From NCBI RefSeq assembly GCF_022790535.1, contig NZ_LOHG01000002.1:466254-530253 (forward strand): a stretch of DNA of 64,000 nucleotides. Reading direction: 5' to 3'. Shown in pieces: positions 7,717 through 23,598 of the stretch. The translations under genes were made by a program, and so were the position numbers. The notes under the pieces are model-generated. The model worked only from the letters and a program-made list of their open reading frames with translations, had not been told where the DNA came from and did no database searches. Positions within the stretch are counted from its first letter, which is position 1. Every line of letters starts with the position of its first letter. Source of the stretch: Pseudomonas maioricensis (GTDB taxonomy: Bacteria; Pseudomonadota; Gammaproteobacteria; Pseudomonadales; Pseudomonadaceae).

Positions 7717-7809
7717 CTGTAGGAGCTCACCGAGGTTACGAGGCCAGCGATGGCGGTGTGTCTGACACTCCGTCATCGCTGGCCTCGTAACCTCGGTGAG
7801 CTCCTACAG
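7717..7809. repeat. REP/BIME hairpin with a 36-bp perfect stem
   Basis: The arms CTGTAGGAGCTCACCGAGG... and ...CCTCGGTGAGCTCCTACAG pair without mismatch over about 36 bp around a 21-nt loop, the longest perfect stem in the window. Confidence 0.85.
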
Positions 7810-8007: not shown

Positions 8008-8020
8008 GTTATATCGTAAC
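8008..8020. promoter_or_regulatory. Candidate Zur-like operator upstream of the SPFH/P1B-ATPase operon
   Basis: GTTATATCGTAAC lies 75 bp upstream of the first SPFH start. It matches the two strong Zur boxes in this window (GTTATACTATAAC) at 10 of 13 positions, keeping both outer half-sites and the spacing. The three central differences make this a tentative call. Confidence 0.4.
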
Positions 8021-8094
8021 GCCATATTCTAAGGGCCCAGCCCGGCGCACTTGTCGGGTGCTGGCGGCAAGATTCGGTAAGTTCTGAGGCGTCG

Positions 8095-10047
8095 ATGCGG
8101 GTTGATCTGGATGTTGAGCACGGCAGCCTGCAGGGACTGCCCAGGTTTCAAAGAGCTGCGTTGCATGCAGCGCGTTTACGACGACTGACCTGGATGGCAG
8201 GCAGCGCTGGTATTTTCGGATTGATACTGGCGCTGTTCGCTGATTTATTCGCGCCGAATTCGCTGTGGGCGGCGGTGCTGGCCAATGATGCTGCGGTGTT
8301 GCTGCTCTTGGCGGCCGCCGTGCAATCGGCTGAAAGTGTCGCGCAGTGGCGAGCGCTGGCGTTAGACGCAAAAGTACCCGGCATCGTAACGGCTGATCCG
8401 GAAGCTGAAGAGCCCGGTTGGTATGACCGGCTCATTGGGCGCATCAGCCATCTGGGTAGTACCACGTTGGCGCAAATCGGCGCGCCGACCCTGTGGCTGG
8501 CGGGATGGACCATTCTTTCGCTGGTGTGTATTCAAGCCGTTTGGGATCTGTCGCTGCCGGGTAGCGATCTCTCGAGAATGGGCAGCGTCGCCGGTGGTAT
8601 TTCCCTGTTGCTCGCCTTCGGTTTACTGGTACTGGAACGTCAGCTCAACGGTGAGCAGGGCGAATGGCCGGAAGCCTTGCAACTGGCCCAGTTACTACGT
8701 GTCGCAATTGCTGTGTTACTGGTTGGCGCAGTCTGCCTGTTTTTTTCCAGCATAGAGCGTCCCTGGACTGCCCGGCTGGCGGTACTGGGCGGTTTATTGC
8801 CCGCGCTTGTGGCCCTCGAACTGCTGATTCGCGCCGCGCTGTCGCTGTTCAACTCTCGTAATCCACGTGTCGAGCCTCGGTTGGTCGCGAGCAGCTTTGT
8901 GGCCGGATTACTGCGCTGGCCGCCGCAACCTTTGCAGGCTTTACAGCACGAGTTGCACAACAGGTTTGGTATTGATTTACGGCAAATCTGGGCCTTTACC
9001 TACATGCGTCGGGCGTTTTTTCCCGTGCTGTCGGCGGTGGTCGCGCTCGGCTGGGCGCTCAGTGGCGTGCATGAAATCCCGATGCAGGGGCGCGGTATCT
9101 ACGAGCGTTTCGGTAAACCGGTAGAAGTGCTCGGCCCAGGCTTGCACGCGGGTCTTCCCTGGCCATTTGGGCGGGTGTTGGCGGTGGAAAATGGTGTGGT
9201 GCACGAACTGGCCACCAGCGTTGCCGATACAGGCGGCGTCGATCCTGCTCCTGTGCTTGATTCGGCAGAGGGTCCGGCCCCCGCGAGTACTAACCGTTTG
9301 TGGGACGCCAGCCACGTCAATGAAAAGTCTCAGGTGATCGCCAGCAGTGCGGGCGACAAGCAGGGTTTTCAGATCGTCAACATGGACGTGCGTCTGGTGT
9401 ATCGCATCGGCTTGACCGACGAAGCCGCCATGGCCGCCACCTACAACAGCGCTGATGTACCGATGCTGATTCGCAGCACTGCCAGCCGGGTGCTTGTGCA
9501 CGATTTTGCGTCGAGAACGCTGGACGAACTGTTGGGTGAGCAGCGTTCTGATTTGGCACTGGATATCGGTAATGCAATACAGGCTGACTTGAATCGACTC
9601 AACAGCGGTGTGGAGATCCTTGCCACTGTGGTTGAAGCGATCCACCCGCCGGCGGGAGCAGCCAACGCCTATCACGCGGTTCAGGCGGCGCAGATCGGTG
9701 CGCAGGCGCTGATCGCTCGCGAACGAGGCGCGGCAAGCAGCACCTCCAATGTGGCGCAACTGAACGCAACCGCTGCACACGACAAAGCCGCTGCGAGTGC
9801 TCGGGAAGTCATGGCGGGGGCACAGGCAGCGCAGCTGCGTTTCAGTGCCGAGCAACAGGGCTACGCAAAAGCAGGGCAGGCGTTTCTGCTTGAACAGTAC
9901 CTGACGCAACTGAGCCATGGCCTGGCCCATTCAACATTGCTGGTGCTTGATCATCGTCTGGGCGGTGCCAATAACGCACCCACCATTGACCTGCGTACTT
10001 TCACACTACCGGCAGACCCAACGGCGCCGCGTAAAGCCGTTCAGTAA
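8095..10047 (+). CDS. Large SPFH (HflK-like) membrane protein with an added N-terminal membrane domain
   Basis: This 650-residue protein has about six membrane helices in the first 250 residues (near 32-50, 58-75, 128-148, 163-181, 202-218 and 228-246) and a seventh near 306-324, followed by an SPFH/band-7 domain (HEIPMQGRGIYERFGKPVEV, then VEVLGPGLHAGLPWPFG) to about residue 560 and an Ala-rich coiled coil. Canonical HflK has one helix and about 400 residues, so the N-terminal domain is an addition. SPFH proteins oligomerise into membrane scaffolds; in HflKC they control the FtsH protease. It is the first gene of an operon with two more SPFH genes and a metal ATPase. The ATG follows a GAGG site by 6 nt. 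Confidence 0.8.
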   Translation: MRVDLDVEHGSLQGLPRFQRAALHAARLRRLTWMAGSAGIFGLILALFADLFAPNSLWAAVLANDAAVLLLLAAAVQSAESVAQWRALALDAKVPGIVTADPEAEEPGWYDRLIGRISHLGSTTLAQIGAPTLWLAGWTILSLVCIQAVWDLSLPGSDLSRMGSVAGGISLLLAFGLLVLERQLNGEQGEWPEALQLAQLLRVAIAVLLVGAVCLFFSSIERPWTARLAVLGGLLPALVALELLIRAALSLFNSRNPRVEPRLVASSFVAGLLRWPPQPLQALQHELHNRFGIDLRQIWAFTYMRRAFFPVLSAVVALGWALSGVHEIPMQGRGIYERFGKPVEVLGPGLHAGLPWPFGRVLAVENGVVHELATSVADTGGVDPAPVLDSAEGPAPASTNRLWDASHVNEKSQVIASSAGDKQGFQIVNMDVRLVYRIGLTDEAAMAATYNSADVPMLIRSTASRVLVHDFASRTLDELLGEQRSDLALDIGNAIQADLNRLNSGVEILATVVEAIHPPAGAANAYHAVQAAQIGAQALIARERGAASSTSNVAQLNATAAHDKAAASAREVMAGAQAAQLRFSAEQQGYAKAGQAFLLEQYLTQLSHGLAHSTLLVLDHRLGGANNAPTIDLRTFTLPADPTAPRKAVQ

Positions 10048-10058
10048 GGAGTCGACCT

Positions 10059-11111
10059 TTGAGTCTGTTTCATAACCACGATCATGCCGGTCACGATCAC
10101 AGTGGCCATGGCCATCACCACGGTCATCATCACGGGCACGCCCACGACGAGTCTTCCGGCCCGCGTGTATTTCCGTGGCGACGGGGTTTGCTCGCCGCGC
10201 TGCTGATCGCATTTGCAGTGGCAGCGGCAAGTCTGGTGCAAGTACGCTCCGGCGAGGCGACGGTGATTACCCGCTTCGGCAATCCGTCCCGGGTATTGCT
10301 CGAACCCGGTCTGAGCTGGCGCTGGCCTGCGCCATTCGAAGCGGCGATACCGGTTGATCTGCGTTTGCGGACTACTTCCAGCGGCTTGCAGGATGTTGGC
10401 ACCCGCGACGGGCTGCGCATCATTGTCCAGGCCTATGTGGCCTGGCAGGTTCAGGGCGACGCAGACAACGTGCAACGTTTCATGCGTGCCGTGCAAAACC
10501 AGCCTGACGAAGCGGCGCGGCAGATTCGTACCTTCGTTGGTTCGGCGCTGGAAACCACGGCCAGCAGTTTTGACCTGGCGAGTCTGGTGAACACTGATGC
10601 CAGCAAAGTGCGTATCAGCGATTTTGAGAACCAACTGCGTCAGCAAATCGATCAGCAACTGCTGACCACTTATGGCGTGCGCGTGCTGCAAGTGGGGGTT
10701 GAGCGTTTGACTCTGCCGTCAGTGACGCTCAATGCCACGGTGGACCGGATGCGCGCCGAGCGCGAAACCATCGCCACCGAGCGCACCGCTGTGGGCAAGC
10801 GTGAGGCAGCGCAGATCCGTTCGGCCGCGGAGCGTGATGCGCGGATCGTTGAGGCGGACGCCACGGTAAAGGCCGCCGATATCGAAGCTCAATCGCGCGT
10901 CGAGGCCGCGCAAATCTATGGCCGGGCTTATGCGGGGTCACCGCAGCTCTATAACCTTCTGCGTTCACTGGACACGCTGGGGACGATTGTTACACCCGGC
11001 ACCCGGTTGATTCTGCGCACCGACGCTGCGCCGTTCAGAGTGTTGGTCGATGGCCCGCCAACACTCAATGGCCCACCTGCCCCGCAGAGCAAAGCCGGGT
11101 CGCAACCATGA
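10059..11111 (+). CDS. SPFH (HflC/HflK-like) protein with a His-rich N-terminus
   Basis: This 350-residue protein begins with 14 histidines in residues 5-29 (HNHDHAGHDHSGHGHHHG and onward), then a single membrane helix near 42-60 and an SPFH domain (EATVITRFGNPSRVLLEPGL). The His tail is the kind of segment used to bind Zn, Ni or Co, and is absent from the canonical HflK/HflC that I know. The start is a TTG at 10059 with a perfect AAGGAG 7 nt upstream, 11 bp after the preceding stop. It overlaps the next gene by 4 bp (ATGA). A metal-sensing or metal-holding role within the SPFH scaffold is my inference. Confidence 0.8.
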   Translation: MSLFHNHDHAGHDHSGHGHHHGHHHGHAHDESSGPRVFPWRRGLLAALLIAFAVAAASLVQVRSGEATVITRFGNPSRVLLEPGLSWRWPAPFEAAIPVDLRLRTTSSGLQDVGTRDGLRIIVQAYVAWQVQGDADNVQRFMRAVQNQPDEAARQIRTFVGSALETTASSFDLASLVNTDASKVRISDFENQLRQQIDQQLLTTYGVRVLQVGVERLTLPSVTLNATVDRMRAERETIATERTAVGKREAAQIRSAAERDARIVEADATVKAADIEAQSRVEAAQIYGRAYAGSPQLYNLLRSLDTLGTIVTPGTRLILRTDAAPFRVLVDGPPTLNGPPAPQSKAGSQP

Positions 11112-12175
11112 GTGAACCTGTCGTTTCAGGTCCGCAACGCGCACCAGTAAACAACCCATGGTTGCAGGCCAGCCGACTGGCCTTCCTGGCGTTGTACGGC
11201 GTGACGGTTCTGGCTGCCGTCGGCTGGGCAGTGTCCAATGTGCGGCAGATTGATCCGCAAAACCGTGCGGTAGTGCTGCGTCTGGGCGCATTGGAGCGGA
11301 TTCAAAACGCAGGATTGCTCACAGCTTGGCCGCAACCGTTCGAGCAGGTGGTGTTGCTGCCCTCGGCGGACCGGGTGATTGAGCGTCGTGTCGAGACTTT
11401 GCTGCGCTCATTTCAAGCCGTGCAGGCTGATCGGGCGGCGAGCTTTGCGGCACCGATGAGCGATGCGTTGGCCGGGTCGGGTTATCTGTTGACCGGGGAC
11501 GCAGGCGTTGTGCAACTGGACGTCACGGTCTACTACAAGGTCAGCGACCCGTATGCCTATGTTCTGCAGGGCGATCACGTGGCGCCAGCGCTGGATCGCA
11601 TCGTCAATCGCAGTGCGGTGGCCCTGACGGCTGCGCGTGATCTGGACACAATTCTAGTGGCTCGACCTGAGCTTGTTTCGGCCGACAGCCAGTCTGCCGA
11701 GCGTCGCGAACGGCTGCGTGGCGACCTGGTAAGCGGCATCAATCAGCGGCTTTCAGAGCTCAGTACAACCGGTTCAGGTATTGGTATCGAAGTTACCCGG
11801 GTCGACGTTCAATCCAGCTTGCCCGGCGCTGCCATCAACGCGTTCAACTCTGTCCTGACCGCCAGCCAGCTTGCTGATCAGGCGGTGGCTAATGCGCGCA
11901 ACGATGCGGAAAAGCTCATTCAGGCTGCGAACCAACAGGCAGACCGTACGTTGCAGGTAGCCCACGCTCAGGCTTCCGAGCGGCTGGCAAAAGCCCAGAC
12001 CGATACGGCCACGGTGGCCAGCCTGAGTGAGTCGATGCACTCCGGGAGTGACCCCGGCCTGTTGCAACGACTCTATCGCGAGCGCGTACCGAAGATCCTT
12101 GGTCAGGCGGGTTCGGTGACTACTGTCGATCCGCGAGATGATTCCCGGCTGATCATTCAAGGAGCAGAAAAATGA
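11108..12175 (+). CDS. Third SPFH (HflK-like) membrane protein
   Basis: This 355-residue protein has one membrane helix near residues 24-44, then the SPFH signature VRQIDPQNRAVVLRLGALE and a C-terminal Ala/Gln-rich coiled coil with ANARNDAEKLIQAANQQ. It keeps the HflK-like order. The start ATG overlaps the stop of the His-rich SPFH gene (ATGA), and its own stop overlaps the ATPase start in the same way. The four genes are therefore translationally coupled, which suggests that the products act together at fixed ratio. Confidence 0.8.
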   Translation: MSEPVVSGPQRAPVNNPWLQASRLAFLALYGVTVLAAVGWAVSNVRQIDPQNRAVVLRLGALERIQNAGLLTAWPQPFEQVVLLPSADRVIERRVETLLRSFQAVQADRAASFAAPMSDALAGSGYLLTGDAGVVQLDVTVYYKVSDPYAYVLQGDHVAPALDRIVNRSAVALTAARDLDTILVARPELVSADSQSAERRERLRGDLVSGINQRLSELSTTGSGIGIEVTRVDVQSSLPGAAINAFNSVLTASQLADQAVANARNDAEKLIQAANQQADRTLQVAHAQASERLAKAQTDTATVASLSESMHSGSDPGLLQRLYRERVPKILGQAGSVTTVDPRDDSRLIIQGAEK

Positions 12176-14103
12176 GTAGCGAAGCGGTTCACGATCCCGT
12201 TGCAGGGCAAGCGTCGCAAAGCATGCTCAGCGCGCCGGAACAACGCAGCGCCGCACGGCAACTGACGCTGGCAATGCTGGCGTTAGGGTTGCTGGGATTG
12301 GGCTTGATCTGGCGCCTCATTGCGCCGGATCAGAATGGCGTTAGCCAGCTGTTACTGGGAGCGGCGTCGTTGCTGGTGGCTATTCCGGTAATCAGCGCCG
12401 GTTGGCACAGCTTGCGCTACCCGAGCCTGCACGGTGTCACCGATCAACTGATCGCGTTGGCCATGCTCGGTGCCTGGGCTACCGGAGATCTGATGACGGC
12501 GGCCTTGTTGCCCATCATCATGATCTTCGGCCATGTCCTGGAAGAACGCAGCGTGATTGGTTCTCAGGAGGCAATTCAGGCGCTGGGCCGCTTGACCCGC
12601 AGCCACGCACGGCTGATCAAAGCCGATGGCAGCGTGCAGGAAGTGGACAACTCGACGCTGGTTGCCGGGGATCAGGTGGAAGTTCGCGCAGGTGATCGGG
12701 TGCCTGCTGACGGCCGGGTGATCTCCGGCCAGGCCAGCCTGGACACCGCGCCGATCACCGGTGAGTCCGTGCCACTGGAAGCCAGACCGGGCGTTGAAGT
12801 ATTTGGTGGTGCGATCAATCTCGACGGTTTGCTGCGCCTTGAAGTGACCCGTACCGGGCAGGATTCAACGCTGGGCAAGGTGATCGCGCTGATGCAAAGC
12901 GCCGAGCGCTCAAAGCCTCCGATCACTCGGTTGCTGGAGCGCTATGCCGGCAGCTACATGGTGTTGGTCTTGCTGATCGCCGCGGTGACCTGGTTCATCA
13001 CTAATAACGCGCAGGCCATGCTGGCTGTGCTGGTCGCAGCGTGTCCCTGCGCCCTTGTGCTGTCGGCTCCCGCGACCGCCATTGCAGGGATCGCGGTGGC
13101 AGCCAGACACGGGATTCTGATTCGCAGTTCGGCCTTCCTGGAAGAGCTGGCCGACCTGACCTCGCTGGTGGTCGACAAAACCGGCACGCTGACCTTTGGC
13201 ACGCTGCGCATTGAATCCGTGCAGTGCGTGGGTCCTGAGTTGCCGCATTTTCTGCCGTTGGCGGCAAGCCTCGGAAGCGCCAGCAGTCACCCGGTCAGCC
13301 GGGCGCTGGCCAGTCTGGTTCCACAGCATCAGTTTCTGGCGCTGAGTGACATTCGTGAGCTTCAAGGCTTGGGGGTGGTGGCGTCCAGCGAATTAGGCGT
13401 TGCGGCGTTAGGCCGTCCCGAGTTGTTCGAGCAACTGGGCATTAGCGCTGCGCCGGTCCCGATTCACGACGGCCCGATTGCCGGTCTGGCACTTGATGGT
13501 GTTTTTCTCGCCTGGCTTTTGCTGGCCGACACGCTGAAGCCCGAGGCGCAAGCGGCGCTGGCTGAGCTACGGGCGCTGGGTATGGGCAGGCAGTTATTGC
13601 TCACCGGTGACCGACACGCTGTGGCGAACAAGCTGGCTGTGGATGTCGGTATCACTGACGTGCAGTCCCAAGCGCTGCCCGAGGATAAGTTGACGCGGGT
13701 TCGTGCCGAGATCAGCAGTGGCTTTCGGCCTATGGTGGTAGGTGATGGCATCAATGACTCGCTAGCCTTGAAAGCTGGCGTGGTAGGGGTAGCGATGGGG
13801 GCCGGTGGTGCGGATATCGCTTTGGCATCGGCCGATATCGTGCTGATTGGCAGTGATCTGCGACGGCTGGGAACCTGTGTACGACTCAGTCGTCAGTGCC
13901 GAAGGACGTTGCAGGTTAATGTCATCATCGGCCTGGGCTGGACGTTGGCGATTGTCGCGCTAGCTGCCTTCGGTTGGTTGGGCGCAGCGGGAGCAATGGT
14001 GGCTGCGATCCTGCACAACCTCAGCACTCTGCTGGTACTCGGCAACGCTGGCAGACTGCTGCGGTTGCATGAGCCGCTAGGTGAATTACCTGTAGCGAAG
14101 TAG
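12172..14103 (+). CDS. P1B-type metal-transporting ATPase lacking an N-terminal metal domain
   Basis: This 643-residue pump carries all catalytic motifs of a P1B ATPase: TGES at 196-199, the CPC metal site at 291-293, phosphorylation motif DKTGT at 335-339, the HP dipeptide at 373-374, TGDR at 478-481 and GDGINDS at 524-530. There is no heavy-metal-associated domain ahead of the first helix. The last helix has HNLST (615-619) where Zn/Cd exporters of the ZntA type carry a conserved Asp. Metal specificity is therefore not settled; Zn, Mn, Co or Fe are possible. It is the last gene of the SPFH operon and overlaps the previous gene (ATGA). Confidence 0.88.
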   Translation: MSSEAVHDPVAGQASQSMLSAPEQRSAARQLTLAMLALGLLGLGLIWRLIAPDQNGVSQLLLGAASLLVAIPVISAGWHSLRYPSLHGVTDQLIALAMLGAWATGDLMTAALLPIIMIFGHVLEERSVIGSQEAIQALGRLTRSHARLIKADGSVQEVDNSTLVAGDQVEVRAGDRVPADGRVISGQASLDTAPITGESVPLEARPGVEVFGGAINLDGLLRLEVTRTGQDSTLGKVIALMQSAERSKPPITRLLERYAGSYMVLVLLIAAVTWFITNNAQAMLAVLVAACPCALVLSAPATAIAGIAVAARHGILIRSSAFLEELADLTSLVVDKTGTLTFGTLRIESVQCVGPELPHFLPLAASLGSASSHPVSRALASLVPQHQFLALSDIRELQGLGVVASSELGVAALGRPELFEQLGISAAPVPIHDGPIAGLALDGVFLAWLLLADTLKPEAQAALAELRALGMGRQLLLTGDRHAVANKLAVDVGITDVQSQALPEDKLTRVRAEISSGFRPMVVGDGINDSLALKAGVVGVAMGAGGADIALASADIVLIGSDLRRLGTCVRLSRQCRRTLQVNVIIGLGWTLAIVALAAFGWLGAAGAMVAAILHNLSTLLVLGNAGRLLRLHEPLGELPVAK

Positions 14104-17222: not shown

Positions 17223-17744
17223 ATGAAGAAATCCACCTTGGCATTGATGTGCTGTCTGGTCGCGCCACTGGCTCAGGCGCAGATGCTGCAACCGGGCTTG
17301 TGGGAGCTGACCTCCAGTAATATGCAAGTGGATGGGCAGGCTATGCCGGATTTGCAGATGATCCTCGGACAGCTGAAAAACTTGCCACCCGAACAGCGCG
17401 CGATGGTCGAACGCAATCTTGAGTCGCAAGGTGTGACACTGGCTGGTAAGGGTGTGCGCTTTTGTCTGACAGACGCGCAGGTCAAGGGCGATGACATCCC
17501 ACTCACTGATCCGAAGTCTGGATGCACGCAACGCATTACTGAACGCAACGGTAAAAACTGGAAATTCACCTTTACCTGCCCAAAAGCGCAGGGCAACGGT
17601 CAGGCTCAGTTTTTGAGTGACCGGGAATTCACCACCCACGTCATCGGCACTTTCAACGCGACTGGCCAGCAGCAGAACGGAAGCATGGACACCCGAGCGG
17701 TCTGGCAGGGTGCCCAATGTGGTGCGGTCAAACCCCGGACCTGA
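17223..17744 (+). CDS. Secreted DUF3617 family protein
   Basis: This 173-residue protein has a Sec signal peptide (MKKSTLALMCCLVAPLAQA, cut near residue 19) and the DUF3617 pattern: LQPGLWELTSSN near the new N-terminus, then paired Cys residues around KGVRFCLTD, SGCTQRI and FTCPKAQ. The function of the family is not known; members are periplasmic. The ATG at 17223 follows AAGGATCCAG and sits just before the signal peptide, so a longer in-frame start at 17097 is rejected. The 3' end overlaps the convergent folE2 by 17 bp. Confidence 0.8.
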   Translation: MKKSTLALMCCLVAPLAQAQMLQPGLWELTSSNMQVDGQAMPDLQMILGQLKNLPPEQRAMVERNLESQGVTLAGKGVRFCLTDAQVKGDDIPLTDPKSGCTQRITERNGKNWKFTFTCPKAQGNGQAQFLSDREFTTHVIGTFNATGQQQNGSMDTRAVWQGAQCGAVKPRT

Positions 17745-18645
17745 TATGGGGATTCCCCACGGCGCTCCAGCTACTTTGAGCCACAGCGTCGTGGGCATGC
17801 AGACTTTCAGCGTGCACCACCTTCACCGAAAACGCTTTTAGCTGCGGATTACGCTGCAATGAGCCGTGCAGACGCCGAGCGGCATCTTCGCAAAACATCA
17901 GATTTTGCCCGTTCGCCAGTGCGAACGCCTGCTCATCCGCGCGCTTCACTGCTGTTTGGACGGCAGTACCCAGTGCGGCTTCTGCTTGATCGATCAAATG
18001 CAGAAACGGAAATTCCTTAGATAATTCATTGAGTTGCACGTGCAAGTGGGCGGTGCTGCGTTGACTGTGAGGTGTCGCAACGATGCCCTCAGCGGTTCCC
18101 AACCATTCCAGAACACTCTGATAATCAAGATCAGGGCTGGCGAAATCTTCAATGAACTGCTGCTGGATCAGCTGTCGCGCTAAGGCCGCTGAGCAAGGGC
18201 ACGTTGAGGAATAGGCCACGTCAATTTTTAGTTCCACGTGGAACATATCGTTTTCCAGACGCGCCAGGATACTGATTGGATAGGATTTCCATCCTGCCAA
18301 TGGGCTGACTAATGCTGGGCGCTTGAGCAGATATTCAGTGTGAATATTCAGGTATGCGCGCTGTGATAATCCCTCATGACTCTCAAGGAAGCACAGAAGC
18401 ACTTGCTGAACCGTGCCCAGCGTGAGGTCTTTTCCTTGCATGAGCTCAAGTGCCAGATACAGCCTCGACATGTGTATACCTCTGGCGCTGCCATCATCCA
18501 GGCTAACGCCTGCATCGACCTTGGCACTGGCGGGTTGCCCTTCAATGCATATCGGCAACGCGACGCCGCACATCCCCACCCAATCCAGCGGCTGTGTTTG
18601 ACGGGATGCTTGCGCGGCAACATCCGGAAGTGAAGCAAGTTTCAT
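17728..18645 (-). CDS. folE2: GTP cyclohydrolase FolE2 (type IB)
   Basis: This 305-residue enzyme converts GTP to dihydroneopterin triphosphate for folate synthesis. Unlike the zinc enzyme FolE, type IB enzymes can use other metals, so bacteria induce it when zinc is scarce. Visible family marks are GIHMSRLY (56-62), the active-site Cys149 in STCPCS, and ATPHSQRSTAHL. A Zur box lies 32 bp upstream of the start and is shared with the divergent amidase gene. The neighbours (amidase, two COG0523 GTPases) are classic zinc-starvation genes. The 3' end overlaps the DUF3617 gene by 17 bp. Confidence 0.93.
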   Translation of the reverse strand: MKLASLPDVAAQASRQTQPLDWVGMCGVALPICIEGQPASAKVDAGVSLDDGSARGIHMSRLYLALELMQGKDLTLGTVQQVLLCFLESHEGLSQRAYLNIHTEYLLKRPALVSPLAGWKSYPISILARLENDMFHVELKIDVAYSSTCPCSAALARQLIQQQFIEDFASPDLDYQSVLEWLGTAEGIVATPHSQRSTAHLHVQLNELSKEFPFLHLIDQAEAALGTAVQTAVKRADEQAFALANGQNLMFCEDAARRLHGSLQRNPQLKAFSVKVVHAESLHAHDAVAQSSWSAVGNPHIRSGV

Positions 18646-18660
18646 GAAAAGAGGCCGTCG

Positions 18661-18677
18661 GTGATGTAAATCATCAC
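18661..18677. promoter_or_regulatory. Second palindrome next to the folE2 Zur box
   Basis: GTGATGTAAATCATCAC has 6-bp arms around 5 nt and abuts the Zur box, between it and the folE2 start. It could be a second operator or a hairpin in the folE2 leader. Confidence 0.3.
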
Positions 18678-18691
18678 GTTATACTATAACG
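18677..18691. promoter_or_regulatory. Zur box between folE2 and the amidase gene
   Basis: CGTTATACTATAACG is a perfect palindrome around one central base and matches the gammaproteobacterial Zur core GTTATANTATAAC. It sits between two divergent zinc-starvation genes and also contains TATA-like hexamers on both strands. Confidence 0.85.
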
Positions 18692-18752
18692 ATAGTTTCG
18701 ACGATTTCTTTTTTTGGGCCGGGATGCTCTTCACATTCGAATGGGCTAATGC

Positions 18753-19973
18753 ATGCACCGCCGACAAGTTTTGCTCAATCTTCTTCTCGCCAGCGCAGCG
18801 CTGACGTTGCCATTCGGTGCCACTGCGGCTCAGATCAGAAATGCGCGGTTGTGGCGCAGCGACGACAAACTAAGGCTGGTGCTCGATCTCAGCGGCCCGG
18901 TGGAATACAAAACCTTCACCCTTGGCGCGCCAGACAGATTGATCATCGACATCAGTGGTGCACGGCTAAGCGGAGATTTTAGTCAGCTCGCGCTGCAAGA
19001 CACGCTGATCAAATCCATTCGCTCAGGGCATTACGGCCAAGGTGATGACACTCGAATCGTTCTCGACCTTACGGGGCCGGTGAAGCTCAACAGCTTTCTG
19101 CTCGGCCCTGCCGGTGATCAGGGCCACCGCCTGGTACTGGATCTGGGTACCGGAGCATCCACTCCAAAAATAGCTGCGCAACCGTCGCCACAGTCTCCTG
19201 TGACCAATGACAAGCCACACCCTAAGCGCAACATCATGGTAGTGGTCGATCCGGGTCATGGCGGCAAAGACCCCGGAGCGGTGGGAGCCAAGGGCGAGCG
19301 TGAGAAGGATGTCGTGTTGTCCATCGCTCAGCTTTTGGCCAAGCGGTTGAAACGGGAGAAGGGATTTGATGTGCGTCTGGTGCGCAATGATGACTTCTTC
19401 GTGCCGCTGCGCAAGCGCGTTGAGATTGCTCATCAACATAACGCTGACATGTTCATCTCGGTTCATGCCGATGCGGCACCACGCCTGACGGCGTCGGGTG
19501 CGTCGGTGTTTGCCTTGTCAGAAGGGGGCGCGACATCTGCCACTGCGCGCTTTATGGCTCAGCGAGAAAACGGTGCGGATCTTCTGGGCGCGACCAGCTT
19601 GCTTAACTTGAAGGACAAGGACCCGATGCTGGCCGGGGTAATTCTCGACATGTCGATGAACGCCACTATTGCTGCGAGCTTGCAGTTGGGGAACACCATT
19701 CTCGGTAGCCTGGCGAATATCACGGCGCTTCATCAAAAACGTGTCGAACAGGCCGGTTTTGCAGTGCTCAAGTCGCCGGATGTGCCTTCGATTCTGGTGG
19801 AGACCGGATTCATCTCGAATGCCAAAGACAGCCAGCGTCTTGTCACGGTACGCCACCAGCAGGCAGTGGCTGATGGTTTGTTTGAAGGGTTGCAGCGGTA
19901 TTTTGAACGTAATCCACCTATCGGTTCGTACATGGCGTGGCAGCAGGAGCAGAAGCAAACCGGGCAGGTTTAG
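18753..19973 (+). CDS. N-acetylmuramoyl-L-alanine amidase (AmiC-type), zinc-starvation paralog
   Basis: This 406-residue periplasmic enzyme cleaves the peptide from muramic acid in peptidoglycan. The N-terminus MHRRQVLLNLLLA suggests Tat export, as in E. coli AmiC. An AMIN domain spans about 27-135 and an Amidase_3 domain about 160-395, with Zn ligands His169 (DPGHGG), Glu184 (REKD) and His238 (SVHAD) and the catalytic ETGFIS segment near the C-terminus. It is divergent from folE2 across a Zur box 62 bp upstream. Such amidase paralogs in Zur regulons are thought to replace the constitutive enzyme when zinc is low. Confidence 0.9.
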   Translation: MHRRQVLLNLLLASAALTLPFGATAAQIRNARLWRSDDKLRLVLDLSGPVEYKTFTLGAPDRLIIDISGARLSGDFSQLALQDTLIKSIRSGHYGQGDDTRIVLDLTGPVKLNSFLLGPAGDQGHRLVLDLGTGASTPKIAAQPSPQSPVTNDKPHPKRNIMVVVDPGHGGKDPGAVGAKGEREKDVVLSIAQLLAKRLKREKGFDVRLVRNDDFFVPLRKRVEIAHQHNADMFISVHADAAPRLTASGASVFALSEGGATSATARFMAQRENGADLLGATSLLNLKDKDPMLAGVILDMSMNATIAASLQLGNTILGSLANITALHQKRVEQAGFAVLKSPDVPSILVETGFISNAKDSQRLVTVRHQQAVADGLFEGLQRYFERNPPIGSYMAWQQEQKQTGQV

Positions 19974-20025
19974 CTGCCCTTGGATGTTCCTCTGTCACCA
20001 TGCTGTCTTACGGTAAACAGAGATC

Positions 20026-20118
20026 CGTGGGACCTGATTTATCCGGGAAGGCGGCATTCCTGGCTATAAAAATGCGGCGGATGTACTGGCCTCTTCCCGA
20101 ATAAATTCGGTCCTACAG
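20026..20118. repeat. Degenerate REP hairpin
   Basis: The outer arms (GTGGGACCTGATTTATCCGG and CCCGAATAAATTCGGTCCTAC) pair imperfectly. It lies between the amidase gene and the zigA-like promoter. Confidence 0.6.
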
Positions 20119-20125
20119 AGACAGG

Positions 20126-20154
20126 TTTACTGATCGCATTGTTATACTATAACA
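20126..20154 (+). promoter_or_regulatory. Zur box overlapping the promoter of the COG0523 operon
   Basis: TGTTATACTATAACA (20140-20154) is a perfect palindrome and Zur-box match. TTTACT (20126-20131) and TATAAC (20148-20153), 16 bp apart, form a plausible -35/-10 pair, so a bound repressor would cover the -10. Confidence 0.82.
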
Positions 20155-20229
20155 TTATCAGGTGATTGATCCGGTGCCCCGCACCGCCATGCGACAAGGT
20201 CAAAACCTTGCAACCTGATGGGTATCCCA

Positions 20230-21438
20230 ATGCCAAATCGTCTTCCTGTCACCGTCCTGTCCGGCTTTCTCGGCGCCGGTAAAAGCACGCTGCTTAACTA
20301 CGTCCTGCGTAACCGCGAAGATTTGCGGGTGGCCGTTATCGTCAATGATATGAGCGAGATCAACATTGATGGCGGCGAAGTTCAGCGAGATGTCAGCCTG
20401 AACCGCGCACAGGAAAAACTCATCGAGATGAGTAATGGCTGCATCTGCTGCACGCTGCGTGAAGATTTGCTCGAAGAGGTCAGCCGTCTGGCTCAGGACG
20501 GGCGCTTTGATTATTTATTGATCGAATCCACCGGGATTTCTGAACCGCTGCCTGTAGCAGAAACATTCACGTTTCGCGATGAGGCGGGCAAAAGCCTGAC
20601 TGATCTGGCGCGGCTGGACACCATGGTCACGGTGGTCGATGGCGTGAATTTCCTGCTTGATTACCAGGCTGCGGAAAGCCTCGCGACCCGTGGTGAAACG
20701 CTGGGAGAGGATGACGACCGCTCGATCACCGACTTGCTGATCGAGCAAATTGAGTTTGCCGATGTGATTTTGCTGAGCAAGATCGACTTGATCAGTTCCA
20801 GCGAGCGTGAAGAACTGATCGCCATTCTGCAGCGGCTCAATGCCCACGCTGAGATTGTGCCAATGGTGATGGGCGAGGTGCCCTTGGCAAAGATCCTGAA
20901 CACTGGCCGATTCGATTTCGAGCGCGCGTCGTTGGCCCCGGGCTGGCTCAAGGAGCTGCGCGGTGAGCATGTGCCTGAAACCGAGGAATACGGCATCGCC
21001 TCTACGGCTTATCGCGCTCGTCGACCCTTCCATCCGGAGCGCTTCTTCAGCTTCATTGACCGGGAGTGGACCAACGGCAAACTGCTGCGCTCCAAAGGGT
21101 TCTTCTGGTTGGCCAGCAAGCATCAGGACGCCGGCAGTTGGTCCCAGGCCGGAGGGCTGATGCGTCACGGTTTCGCTGGCCGCTGGTGGCGGTTCGTCCC
21201 GCGTGCTCATTGGCCTCAGGATGAAGAAAACATCACCGCAATCATGGACAACTGGACTTCACAAACCGGTGACTGCCGACAGGAGCTGGTGTTCATTGGT
21301 CAGAATATCGACTTTGCGCAACTGACTGCCGAACTGGATAACTGCCTTCTTACTGATGAGGAGATGGCCTTGGGCACAGAAGGGTGGGTATCGCTGCCCG
21401 ACCCCTTTGGTCCCTGGCACGAAATGGAGGCTGCGTGA
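20230..21438 (+). CDS. zigA: COG0523 GTPase, candidate zinc metallochaperone (ZigA type)
   Basis: This 402-residue P-loop GTPase has Walker [10 protein letters not shown] at 12-20, the metal-binding CICC motif at 71-74, switch region ESTGISEP, and a CobW C-terminal domain with WFV-rich segments near 330-360. ZigA-type proteins are made under zinc limitation and are thought to deliver zinc to target proteins. A Zur box overlaps its promoter. The start at 20230 (MPNRLPV) agrees with the family; an ATG four codons upstream (20218) is possible. It overlaps the DUF1826 gene (TGATG), which suggests translational coupling. Confidence 0.88.
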
Positions 21439-22088
21439 TGCTTGCGACAGTTTTGAAATGGCAGCCGCGAATTCGTCAGGTTCAGGGGGATACTCCTGCC
21501 GTTCTCAGCCAGGTGCTGGACGATGATGTGAATCTCGCCGTCTGGCAGCGTCAGTTACCGGCGCACATTGCCGACTTTGGTGCGCTGCTGCTCTCTCTGA
21601 ATGAGCCGCTGGCCGAGGCCATTACGCTGGAGATCAGCGATGACGATGTTCAGCCTGAGCTCCAGAACTTCGCTTCTGCTTATGCTGATCTTGAAGGCTA
21701 TGAAGGTTTCATCGCCGACGTGTCATGGCTGATCAGCGCTTACGCCTGCCTGTTGGGCGCCAAGCGCATAGGGGTTCGACTTCGGGTTCTGGATAAAGCC
21801 ATGTGCCCGCGCTTCCACGTCGACCATGTACCGGTCCGCTTGATCACCACTTACGCAGGCATCGGCAGCCAGTGGTTGAGAGAGGGCGCCATTGATCGCA
21901 GCCAGTTGGGCAACCCTCAGGCCGAACCCCGGGACGCGCTGAAGATCAGGCAGATCAACGGTGGTGACGTGGCGCTGCTCAAGGGCGAGCGCTGGGTGGG
22001 TAACGAAGGCCAGGGCCTGGTGCATCGTTCGCCGCAGTTGCAGCGTGATGAGCGACGTTTGTTACTGACCCTGGATTGGTTGGCTTAG
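21438..22088 (+). CDS. DUF1826 protein of the Zur operon
   Basis: This 216-residue protein has no signal peptide. Its conserved core is RVLDKAMCPRFHVDHVPVRL followed by TTYAGIGSQWL, in which Cys, two His and Asp could bind a metal. DUF1826 genes recur next to ZigA-type COG0523 genes in pseudomonad Zur regulons, but no activity is known to me. The ATG at 21438 shares a base with the zigA stop; a longer in-frame start at 21384 lies inside zigA and is rejected. Confidence 0.8.
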   Translation: MLATVLKWQPRIRQVQGDTPAVLSQVLDDDVNLAVWQRQLPAHIADFGALLLSLNEPLAEAITLEISDDDVQPELQNFASAYADLEGYEGFIADVSWLISAYACLLGAKRIGVRLRVLDKAMCPRFHVDHVPVRLITTYAGIGSQWLREGAIDRSQLGNPQAEPRDALKIRQINGGDVALLKGERWVGNEGQGLVHRSPQLQRDERRLLLTLDWLA

Positions 22089-22122
22089 AAGCATCTTTGG
22101 CATGACCATGAGATCTGATTTT

Positions 22123-22211
22123 TGTGGGAGCAGAGCTTGCTCGCGATAAGGCTGGACTCGATTTAAAGCGAACCGTGTTCAGCCTCATCGCGAGCAAGCT
22201 CTGCTCCCACA
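22123..22211. repeat. REP/BIME hairpin, GTGGGAGCAGAGCTTGCTC family
   Basis: TGTGGGAGCAGAGCTTGCTC pairs with GAGCAAGCTCTGCTCCCACA. The same family is seen at 58983-59075. It separates the convergent DUF1826 gene and Cys-rich protein gene. Confidence 0.85.
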
Positions 22212-22231
22212 GGTAATGTAGTTTCAGCCAC

Positions 22232-22609
22232 TTACGGCACCAACCACTTGCCCTGACTCTGCCCCTCGCAAAACGGCTTCAGGTACGCCGCGTCGCTGGC
22301 CACGCCGTAATAGTGAATATCTTCGCGATAAGGCATATTGGCGACTTGCGCGTTGCTGCAAATGCCAAAGGCACCGGTGGGACACTGCTCTAGAAATGTC
22401 ACATCGGTTTTTTGCCCTGCCAGCTGCGGTTGGCAGAAGCCGTCATGAAACAGTTTGGGCGGGATGTTGCGGTTGGCCTGGCAGACTTTCACGTCCAACC
22501 GTTCGGCCTGACTATGTACCAGACATGCCTCGGCCCATGCGTTTCCTGCACTCGCTACCAGTATCATCCCCAGAAACATCTCTATTCTGGCTTTAAACGC
22601 CTTCGTCAT
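22232..22609 (-). CDS. Small secreted six-cysteine protein, function unknown
   Basis: This 125-residue product has a signal peptide ending near AGNAWA (residue 26) and six Cys residues in the mature part (EACLVH, KVCQAN, GFCQPQ, EQCPTG, GICSN, PFCEG), enough for three disulfides. I do not recognise a family. It is divergent from the second COG0523 gene with only 11 bp between the two start codons, and it lies inside the zinc-starvation island, so a link to metal handling is possible but unproven. A second ATG at 22579 would start directly at the hydrophobic core. Confidence 0.6.
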   Translation of the reverse strand: MTKAFKARIEMFLGMILVASAGNAWAEACLVHSQAERLDVKVCQANRNIPPKLFHDGFCQPQLAGQKTDVTFLEQCPTGAFGICSNAQVANMPYREDIHYYGVASDAAYLKPFCEGQSQGKWLVP

Positions 22610-22620
22610 AAGCGACCACC

Positions 22621-23598
22621 ATGCTGCAGAACATTCCGACCCACGTCATCGGCGGACCTTTGGGGGCAGGCAAGACCAGCCTCATCCAACATCTATTGGC
22701 GCAGAAACCAGCAGATGAGCGCTGGGCGATTCTCATCAATGAGTTCGGTCAGATCGGCCTGGATGCTGCGCTGCTGACCACGGCCGACGATGGTATCGCA
22801 CTTGGCGAAGTGGCTGGCGGTTGCCTCTGTTGCGTTAACGGAGCGCCCTTTCAAATCGGCCTGGGCCGGCTGCTGCGCAAGTCCAGACCCCATCGATTAT
22901 TGATCGAGCCGTCCGGCCTCGGTCATCCCGCGCAGTTGATCGAGCAGTTGCAGCAAGCGCCCTGGCTGGGTGTGCTTACGGTTCAGCCCAGCGTCATGGT
23001 ATTGGATGCGGCGGCATTGGCTGCCGGGAATCCACTGCCACCTAGCCAACAATCGGCGCTGAATAGCGCCGGGTTATGGGTGCTTAACAAATCAGCGGAT
23101 TTGGATACTGCGGCACGTCAGCGGATTACTGAGCGATTGCCTGTTGGCAAGATGATATGGACGGAGCAGGGCAAGTTGCTGCTGGCTGAATTGCCGGGTA
23201 TGACTTCAACACCCGAGTTGCTTGTGGATAAATCAGCTGTGGATAACCTTTCTTTGCCCAAGAGTCTGGCGCAGCTTCCGGCAGTATGGGCAGATCCAGC
23301 TCAACCCATTTGTCTCAGTCAGCGTCAGCAAGAAGGGTGGAGCATTGGATGGCGTTGGCATCCCAGCCAGCGCTTTGATCTGGGCCGATTGCAAACCTGG
23401 TTGCAGGGGATGAGCTGGCTTCGCGCCAAACTGGTTATCCACAGCGAGAAAAACTGGGTTTCAGGTAATGCCGTCGCGGGGGATACCGTGCAGTGGCAAG
23501 TCAGCGAGTGGCGACGGGATTCGCGGCTGGAATTGATCTTCTCGCAGCCACAGGATGAAGCCAGCCTGCAGGCTGAACTGGCTGCTTGTCTGCTCTAG
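22621..23598 (+). CDS. Second COG0523/CobW-family GTPase
   Basis: This 325-residue P-loop GTPase has Walker A GGPLGAGKTS at 11-20, the metal motif CLCC at 68-71, IEPSGLGHP as switch region and NKSADLD as the guanine-specificity segment. It is shorter than the ZigA-type protein and has no His-rich stretch. Two COG0523 paralogs within one zinc-starvation region is an arrangement that I recall from P. aeruginosa (PA5532 and PA5535). No Zur box was found directly before it, and its promoter would have to overlap the divergent gene. Confidence 0.85.
   Translation: MLQNIPTHVIGGPLGAGKTSLIQHLLAQKPADERWAILINEFGQIGLDAALLTTADDGIALGEVAGGCLCCVNGAPFQIGLGRLLRKSRPHRLLIEPSGLGHPAQLIEQLQQAPWLGVLTVQPSVMVLDAAALAAGNPLPPSQQSALNSAGLWVLNKSADLDTAARQRITERLPVGKMIWTEQGKLLLAELPGMTSTPELLVDKSAVDNLSLPKSLAQLPAVWADPAQPICLSQRQQEGWSIGWRWHPSQRFDLGRLQTWLQGMSWLRAKLVIHSEKNWVSGNAVAGDTVQWQVSEWRRDSRLELIFSQPQDEASLQAELAACLL

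Follow-up and report, generated by a model that had tools for sequence, protein, structure and literature searches.

What ties three proteins of the SPFH (Band_7) family to a metal pump? The question is raised by a 64-kb stretch of DNA (the window) from a 5.9 Mb Pseudomonas-type genome, in which four tightly coupled genes on the + strand, labelled A, B, C and D in operon order, are separated by gaps of 11, -4 and -4 bases. Gene A (8095-10047) encodes an HflK-like protein of 650 residues, consisting of a CDF-like six-helix domain, a seventh transmembrane (TM) helix and an SPFH domain. It is followed by gene B (10059-11111, TTG start; 350 residues), for an HflC-like SPFH protein with one TM helix and a histidine-rich N-terminal tail, and by gene C (11108-12175; 355 residues), for an HflK-like SPFH protein with one TM helix. 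Gene D (12172-14103; 643 residues) encodes a P1B-type ATPase resembling HmtA, with a CPC motif in the pump helix and HN[LF]ST in the last helix. Our answer, which we hold to be fairly probable, is that the four products would form a Zur-controlled metal-transport complex of the inner membrane, made under zinc limitation.

An all-or-none unit of SPFH genes and pump

Both the coordinates and the Pfam domains agreed with the four coupled genes described in the initial annotation of this DNA. Band_7 was matched by A, B and C with 75.7, 112.6 and 66.8 bits, respectively (cut-off 23.6), in A at residues 327-546, and D was matched by E1-E2_ATPase (179.2 bits) and Hydrolase (60.9). The annotation had also described a seven-helix A, a CPC-type ATPase and 14 histidines early in B. 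All three were seen: hydropathy gave seven hydrophobic helices in A and one each in B and C, CPC stands at residues 291-293 of D, and B has exactly 14 histidines, all at residues 5-29.

In the genus sample, the SPFH genes and the pump occur together or not at all. D was found in 87/149 genus genomes (E<=1e-100), A and B were each found in the same 87 (E<=1e-50), and the remaining 62 had none of A, B and D at these thresholds. The scans took A, B and D as queries, and C was seen through the fetched loci. The grouping of A to D is far beyond chance, because the gene order was the same in all 86 other genus loci with the ATPase (87/87 with the window; A partly matched in L109). The regular neighbourhood of SPFH genes and ATPase that had been proposed thus withstood the co-occurrence check, and chance adjacency was ruled out by the all-or-none pattern. 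In L109, from genome G034, A is split into two overlapping frames, which points to an assembly error or to a copy in decay.

Outside the genus, the order A-B-C-D was kept in 17/17 loci chosen for carrying B (13 from genus g9, one from g13, three from beyond the family). B was present in 28/198 family genomes (3/19 genera), in 1/369 class genomes, the window's own, and in 11/398 phylum genomes (4/212 genera). A broader profile of A matched 34/398 phylum genomes, only 11 of them over the membrane domain, and these were the same 11 that carried B. Among the matches listed for named genomes, 27 of the 34 loci matched all four proteins, including loci in P. citronellolis, P. viridiflava, P. avellanae, P. 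frederiksbergensis and two Paraburkholderia; P. aeruginosa is not among these listed loci. The rest of the list comprises three remote loci with SPFH genes and pump (L179-L181) and four without an SPFH-pump unit (L178, L182, L183 and L184). A stop interrupts B of L134, and stops also lie inside a few other matches.

The unit recurs at a much larger distance. A Pedosphaera metagenome-assembled genome (MAG) of the Verrucomicrobiota has the order A-B-C-D, with histidine-rich C and D. In Planctomycetales ZRK34, D comes first and A-B-C, with a histidine-rich C, come last; between them lies an opposite-strand frame resembling an ABC-type permease. In a Planctomycetota MAG, a single frame of 1080 residues (L181:4686-7928) contains E1-E2_ATPase, Hydrolase and Band_7, and is followed by two further SPFH genes, the first with a tail of 20 histidines. 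Care is needed here, as two of these three loci come from MAGs. The CPC motif and the last-helix histidine were invariant between the three distant pumps and two Pseudomonas pumps.

Eleven plasmid records matched B, of which six were opened and five were annotated (L248 was without annotation). All five annotated loci have an SPFH trio and then a P1B ATPase, the two being separated by one gene in Aquibium. The four-gene unit is also carried by pYD-K10_1 of Klebsiella aerogenes (L247), a plasmid typed as conjugative. In Paraburkholderia sprentiae, a zinc ABC transporter and a PCu(A)C gene lie just upstream of the unit. The fused P1B-SPFH protein and a CDF-SPFH protein described below, both from distant bacteria, make a physical coupling of scaffold and pump plausible. 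We found no description of P1B-SPFH or CDF-SPFH fusions in the part of the literature that was accessible.

Probable zinc control and the Pseudomonas aeruginosa counterpart

The initial annotation had begun the operon at 8008, and a perfect Zur-type box that it does not mention, GTTATATCGTAAC (8008-8020, + strand, exact pattern match), starts at this very base, 74 bases 5' of the first start codon. Three places in the window carry the pattern (five matches with both strands counted), and none of 100 shuffles reached five. All three sites are within a 12-kb cluster of the operon, folE2 and zigA. In the whole genome there are six distinct sites (nine matches); as a control, the reversed pattern gave one match.

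Across the genus, the best 13-mer 5' of A agreed with the palindrome at 10/12 positions in 79 and at 9/12 in 8 of the 87 loci (window included), counts that are not independent because the species are related. A level of at least 9/12 was reached by 3/74 controls upstream of cfaB, by 0/87 upstream of C inside the operon, and by 7.6% of randomised sequences (n=1740), of which 0.6% reached 10. Outside the genus, 16/17 loci reached at least 9/12 in a slightly longer stretch, two of them (L137 and L142) doubtfully. The match in L136 was only 8/12, and in L118, a locus of the genus, the best 13-mer was out of register with the box.

The other two sites of the window belong to a neighbouring zinc-starvation cluster (17728-23598), which consists of folE2, an amidase gene, zigA, a second COG0523 gene and two palindromic Zur-type boxes. 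The type IB GTP cyclohydrolase gene folE2 (17728-18645, - strand) scored 324.5 bits with NF010200 (cut-off 215). One palindrome (18678-18690) was matched between folE2 and the amidase gene (18753-19973), the other (20141-20153) 5' of zigA (20218-21438), whose product scored 680.4 bits with the ZigA model NF038288 (cut-off 600). Elsewhere in the genome, Zur-type sites precede a ZnuD-like receptor (370.5 bits, below the cut-off of 950), a siderophore-type receptor (359.1 bits, cut-off 223.5) and an ABC transporter resembling AztA/AztB (214 against 220 and 248 against 280, both below cut-off). A Zur-like gene (113.5 bits, below the cut-off of 167; Pfam FUR above cut-off) adjoins a znuA-like gene (259.7 bits, cut-off 268) and ABC genes. 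From its sequence context, the four-gene locus appears to be zinc-controlled and switched on under zinc scarcity. Metal handling rather than bulk export had been suggested initially, and the box and the zinc-starvation neighbours fit scarcity; a bulk metal-resistance operon was ruled out, since the box, folE2 and zigA point to starvation. On the other side of the box, towards lpd, we noted a long inverted repeat resembling repetitive extragenic palindromic elements (7719-7808, arms of about 36 bases).

The window locus matches PA2439-PA2435 of P. aeruginosa, the hmtA locus, in gene content, order and regulation; its identification as the counterpart also draws on an insert found in g9 loci. 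PA2439, PA2438 and PA2437 are HflK/HflC types and PA2435 is HmtA; in a znuA mutant they were up 9.0, 10.6, 14.4 and 5.6 fold, respectively (PMC4542158). The PA2439 promoter was shifted by Zur (PMC8531726), and zinc-depleted cells had more of the proteins of the locus, a difference that was significant for some of them (PMC11761036). The SPFH genes have been named PaFlo5-7 and are described as conserved in P. syringae and P. knackmussii (PMC13086221). The insert, of 616-651 bases between C and D, is present in 9 of the 13 g9 loci and fits PA2436. At this place, L138 has a listed frame of about 150 residues (L138:10142-10594) with no Pfam match at E<=0.01.

The proposal that the system was undescribed did not hold, as its P. 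aeruginosa counterpart, with the pump named HmtA, has been published as part of the Zur regulon (PMC4542158, PMC8531726, PMC11761036). The locus is known in pieces as a member of that regulon and is not wholly undescribed. The words "ATPase" and "Zur" occur nowhere in the text of PMC13086221, "ATPase" is absent from the accessible part of a survey of prokaryotic SPFH operons (PMC2636767), and in the partial literature at hand we found no paper that treats the SPFH proteins and the pump as one system. What seems to be undescribed is how tightly cage and pump are linked, a pairing found again in distant bacteria and in one case as a single fused protein.

The encoded proteins

The SPFH proteins are not the classical HflK and HflC, which were ruled out by scores and by genome content. 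Against the equivalog models, A reached 57.3 bits (cut-off 159.4), B 92.1 with hflC (134.4) and C 97.5 with hflK (159.4), all below the cut-offs. The genome has six Band_7 matches, and a canonical hflC/hflK pair on another contig exceeded its TIGR cut-offs (375.3 and 270.9 bits).

The tail of B (residues 1-29; 10059-10145, + strand) is predicted to lie on the cytoplasmic side, as in HflK and HflC, because a positively charged stretch and the single helix come after it. The first 35 residues of B hold 8-19 histidines in 87/87 genus loci, and each of the 17 loci outside the genus also shows a histidine-rich tail. In more distant units it changes place. B carries a metal-binding tail in the fused planctomycete locus, in Burkholderia and in Paraburkholderia, and C carries one in ZRK34; in the verrucomicrobial locus both C and D have a tail, in Rhizobium both B and D, and in Klebsiella D (5 histidines). 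A, B and C of Aquibium have no such tail, and its D presumably starts with a heavy-metal-associated domain, to judge from a motif. Counting Aquibium in this way, some metal-binding tail is present in all eight units compared, which suggests that its job belongs to the cytoplasmic face of a complex rather than to B.

The resemblance of A to zinc transporters rests on its fold. In an AlphaFold model of A (mean predicted local distance difference test score, pLDDT, 66), the helices of the first domain mostly score 78-94, lower around residues 91-130. This domain (residues 18-256; 8146-8862, + strand) was aligned by VIA-align with YiiP (8f6k_B) at Z 14.7 (root-mean-square deviation 3.9, 198 residues, 11% identity), and with ZnT1, ZnT3 and SLC30A10 at Z 12.7, 12.1 and 12.0, values to be read with the caveat that helical bundles can reach Z ~13 through a common arrangement. 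Most CDF rows were between 14.7 and 9.6, and the first unrelated helical row was at 7.9, with one outward-facing ZnT1 row below it at 7.3. In a Foldseek search with A, YiiP ranked 21st (E 0.067), behind SPFH proteins.

PF01545 (CDF) was not among the families listed for 19 members at E<=10. In hhalign, more A sequences against 29 CDFs and the CDF domain of an Aquibium protein (see below) gave a probability (Prob) of 1.8%; the aligned stretch between A and CDFs spans TM3 into TM5 in both. A single planctomycete A reached 42.8% against the CDF set, but the Aquibium domain by itself gave 0.2%, and three unrelated transporters gave no more than 1.8%. The metal-site motif [HD]xxx[HD] was missing from TM2 and TM5 in 103/103 sequences; for comparison, [HD]xxxD was present in the first 100 residues of 24/29 CDFs.

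We count a natural fusion as independent support for the CDF-like reading of A. In the HflK-HflC-HflK trio on a plasmid of Aquibium oceanicum, the first protein matches Pfam Cation_efflux (residues 8-198, 89.0 bits) and Band_7 (243-414). This protein, annotated as HflK (L252:7358-8905), is a CDF-SPFH fusion, and its cluster also encodes PCu(A)C, SCO and a P1B pump. The sequences make no firm case for common descent of the fusion and A. Such a fusion with an intact motif is rare: in the class of genome G797, the matches listed in 128/157 genomes miss the CDF part, and among the best 20 listed of 48 plasmid records only Aquibium's own covers at least 80% of the query. On the modelled fold, A probably joins a CDF-like membrane domain without a metal site to an SPFH protein.

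D scored 486.7 bits with TIGR01512 (cut-off 313.5), and no N-terminal domain was detected in it by Pfam. The solved structures closest to D are the cadmium pump 7qbz and ZntA (4umv). By pattern search, CPC was found in 87/87 loci, HN[LF]ST in 85/87 and the Trp-Thr pair in 84/87. The misses are two pumps without the TM8 motif and three without Trp-Thr, and L121 and L122 are cut by contig ends. Thr591 and His615 of D were invariant in 18 aligned pumps; in the 4umv alignment their columns hold Lys693 and Asp714 of ZntA. The AlphaFold model of D, with a mean pLDDT of 58.5, was too poor to locate the metal site. By its motifs, D is neither a standard P1B-2 pump nor an SPC-site pump, and the sequence settles neither substrate nor direction.

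Proposed complex, rival explanations and known systems

A scaffold plus pump for handling metal under scarcity is the best reading of these data, and it gains unusual support from the fused relatives and the zinc-transporter-like fold of A, a fold that the initial annotation does not mention. At low zinc, Zur would leave the box at 8008 and the four-gene unit would be expressed, if repression works as in the P. aeruginosa counterpart. A, B and C would then, in the manner of HflK/HflC and other SPFH proteins, build a hetero-oligomeric dome on the periplasmic face. The pump D and the CDF-like domain of A would sit inside the enclosed membrane patch, where we place them because of the fixed gene order, the all-or-none co-occurrence and the fused relatives. 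The tails of B, with 14 histidines each and in many copies, could form a zinc-binding brush beside the pump, on the cytoplasmic face if the charge-based prediction is right. Zinc or copper may move into the cell, a direction that we regard as evenly poised; we lean to it because HmtA of P. aeruginosa was reportedly found to be an importer (by Lewinson in 2009).

Several points weigh against a Zur-controlled SPFH-P1B complex of this kind. P1B pumps normally export metal. The Paraburkholderia loci L175 and L177 are without a Zur-type box (best match 7/12), and B of the Klebsiella plasmid is without the histidine tail. With regard to A, hhalign of its N-terminal domain against 29 CDFs gave Prob 0.7% and no significant profile match, the Pseudomonas A profile against the Aquibium CDF domain gave 0.1%, and BLASTP joined the Aquibium fusion and A only via the SPFH part (22%, 315 positions, E 1e-07). 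In P. aeruginosa, the predicted Zur site is weak (E 0.11; PMC4542158), hmtA mRNA was constantly low and not repressed by zinc in one study (PMC8531726), and deletion of the three SPFH genes gave subtle phenotypes, under conditions that were, as far as known, without zinc limitation (PMC13086221).

The normal direction of P1B pumps leads to the rival that we take most seriously, to which we still give clearly less than even weight: the same complex working in the opposite direction. D would then export wrong metals (copper, cobalt, cadmium) let in by derepressed uptake systems, or hand metal to periplasmic proteins under the SPFH dome, with the histidine tails holding or selecting metal at the cytoplasmic mouth. 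The predicted position of the tail on the loading side fits this, as do the best alignments of D, with the cadmium pump and ZntA, and the genes next to relatives of the unit, PCu(A)C in P. sprentiae and PCu(A)C with SCO in Aquibium. A Zur-type box would, however, be unusual on an exporter, and reviews report that HmtA overexpression raises intracellular zinc and copper.

There are two further explanations. The trio could be zinc-starvation paralogues of HflK and HflC that modulate the zinc protease FtsH, the pump being merely co-transcribed. Their best models are hflK and hflC, and published annotations call them FtsH modulators (PMC9431628; PMC11761036). Given that A, B and C are all under the cut-offs of those models in a genome that has the canonical pair elsewhere, that each of the 149 genomes has either all or none of A, B and D, and that one relative fuses the SPFH domain to the pump itself, we consider this unlikely. 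Slightly less likely still is a cage that serves chiefly as a membrane-bound zinc buffer, filled or emptied through the pump. Fourteen histidines per copy of B, multiplied by many SPFH copies if the cage is like HflKC, would suit such a store, but storage is normally built in times of plenty and not under Zur derepression, and the tail-less B of Klebsiella speaks against it.

If the SPFH-P1B complex exists as we propose, it would explain the place of a P1B pump in a zinc-starvation regulon. The direction of HmtA would become an experiment to be done with the partner proteins, as tests of the pump alone would lack the cage. Most SPFH proteins have yet to be assigned a role, and the client known best is FtsH. 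A and B were never apart from the metal pump in the 149 genus genomes, A has a zinc-transporter-like fold and the unit appears to be under zinc control, which together offer a transporter in a protein-bounded membrane patch as a testable client. More tentatively, the locus might represent an unrecognised general class of SPFH-caged metal-transport machines, with a dome bearing a CDF fold, a P1B pump and a movable cytoplasmic metal-binding tail. In Pseudomonas, such a machine might then act as a metal proof-reading device during zinc starvation. The range proposed for this class extends from Pseudomonas, where it is Zur-controlled, through Burkholderia, Rhizobium and Klebsiella plasmids to Verrucomicrobiota and Planctomycetota, a generalisation that we consider possible rather than probable.

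Among known systems, the closest is PA2434-PA2439 of P. aeruginosa, which likewise has three HflK/HflC-type genes and a P1B ATPase, is bound by Zur and is induced by zinc depletion. It has PA2436 between the SPFH genes and the pump, whereas the window has no insert there; the g9 loci share the window's gene order. The Zur-type box of the window is a near-perfect palindrome, in contrast to the weak published site.

The pump shares its P1B architecture and CPC motif with the P1B-2 pump ZntA (4umv) and with 7qbz. It differs from ZntA by a histidine in the last helix (HN[LF]ST) where ZntA has aspartate, a histidine also seen in HEGST of 7qbz, and by a threonine after the invariant tryptophan where ZntA has lysine. 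Residues 18-256 of A have a six-TM fold like that of the CDF/ZnT proteins YiiP, ZnT1, ZnT3 and SLC30A10. Unlike these, this part of A is without the metal-site motif or a Pfam match, it has no significant sequence similarity to them, and an SPFH domain replaces the CDF C-terminal domain.

The SPFH proteins of the window match E. coli HflK-HflC (7vhp, 7wi3, 9cz2) in sequence and fold. They share with the HflK-HflC/FtsH system the SPFH domain, the one TM helix, the cytoplasmic N-terminus and the encoding of K and C types together. Unlike HflK-HflC, however, the unit comprises three such proteins instead of two, with a CDF-like domain on A, a histidine tail on B and a metal pump as partner gene.

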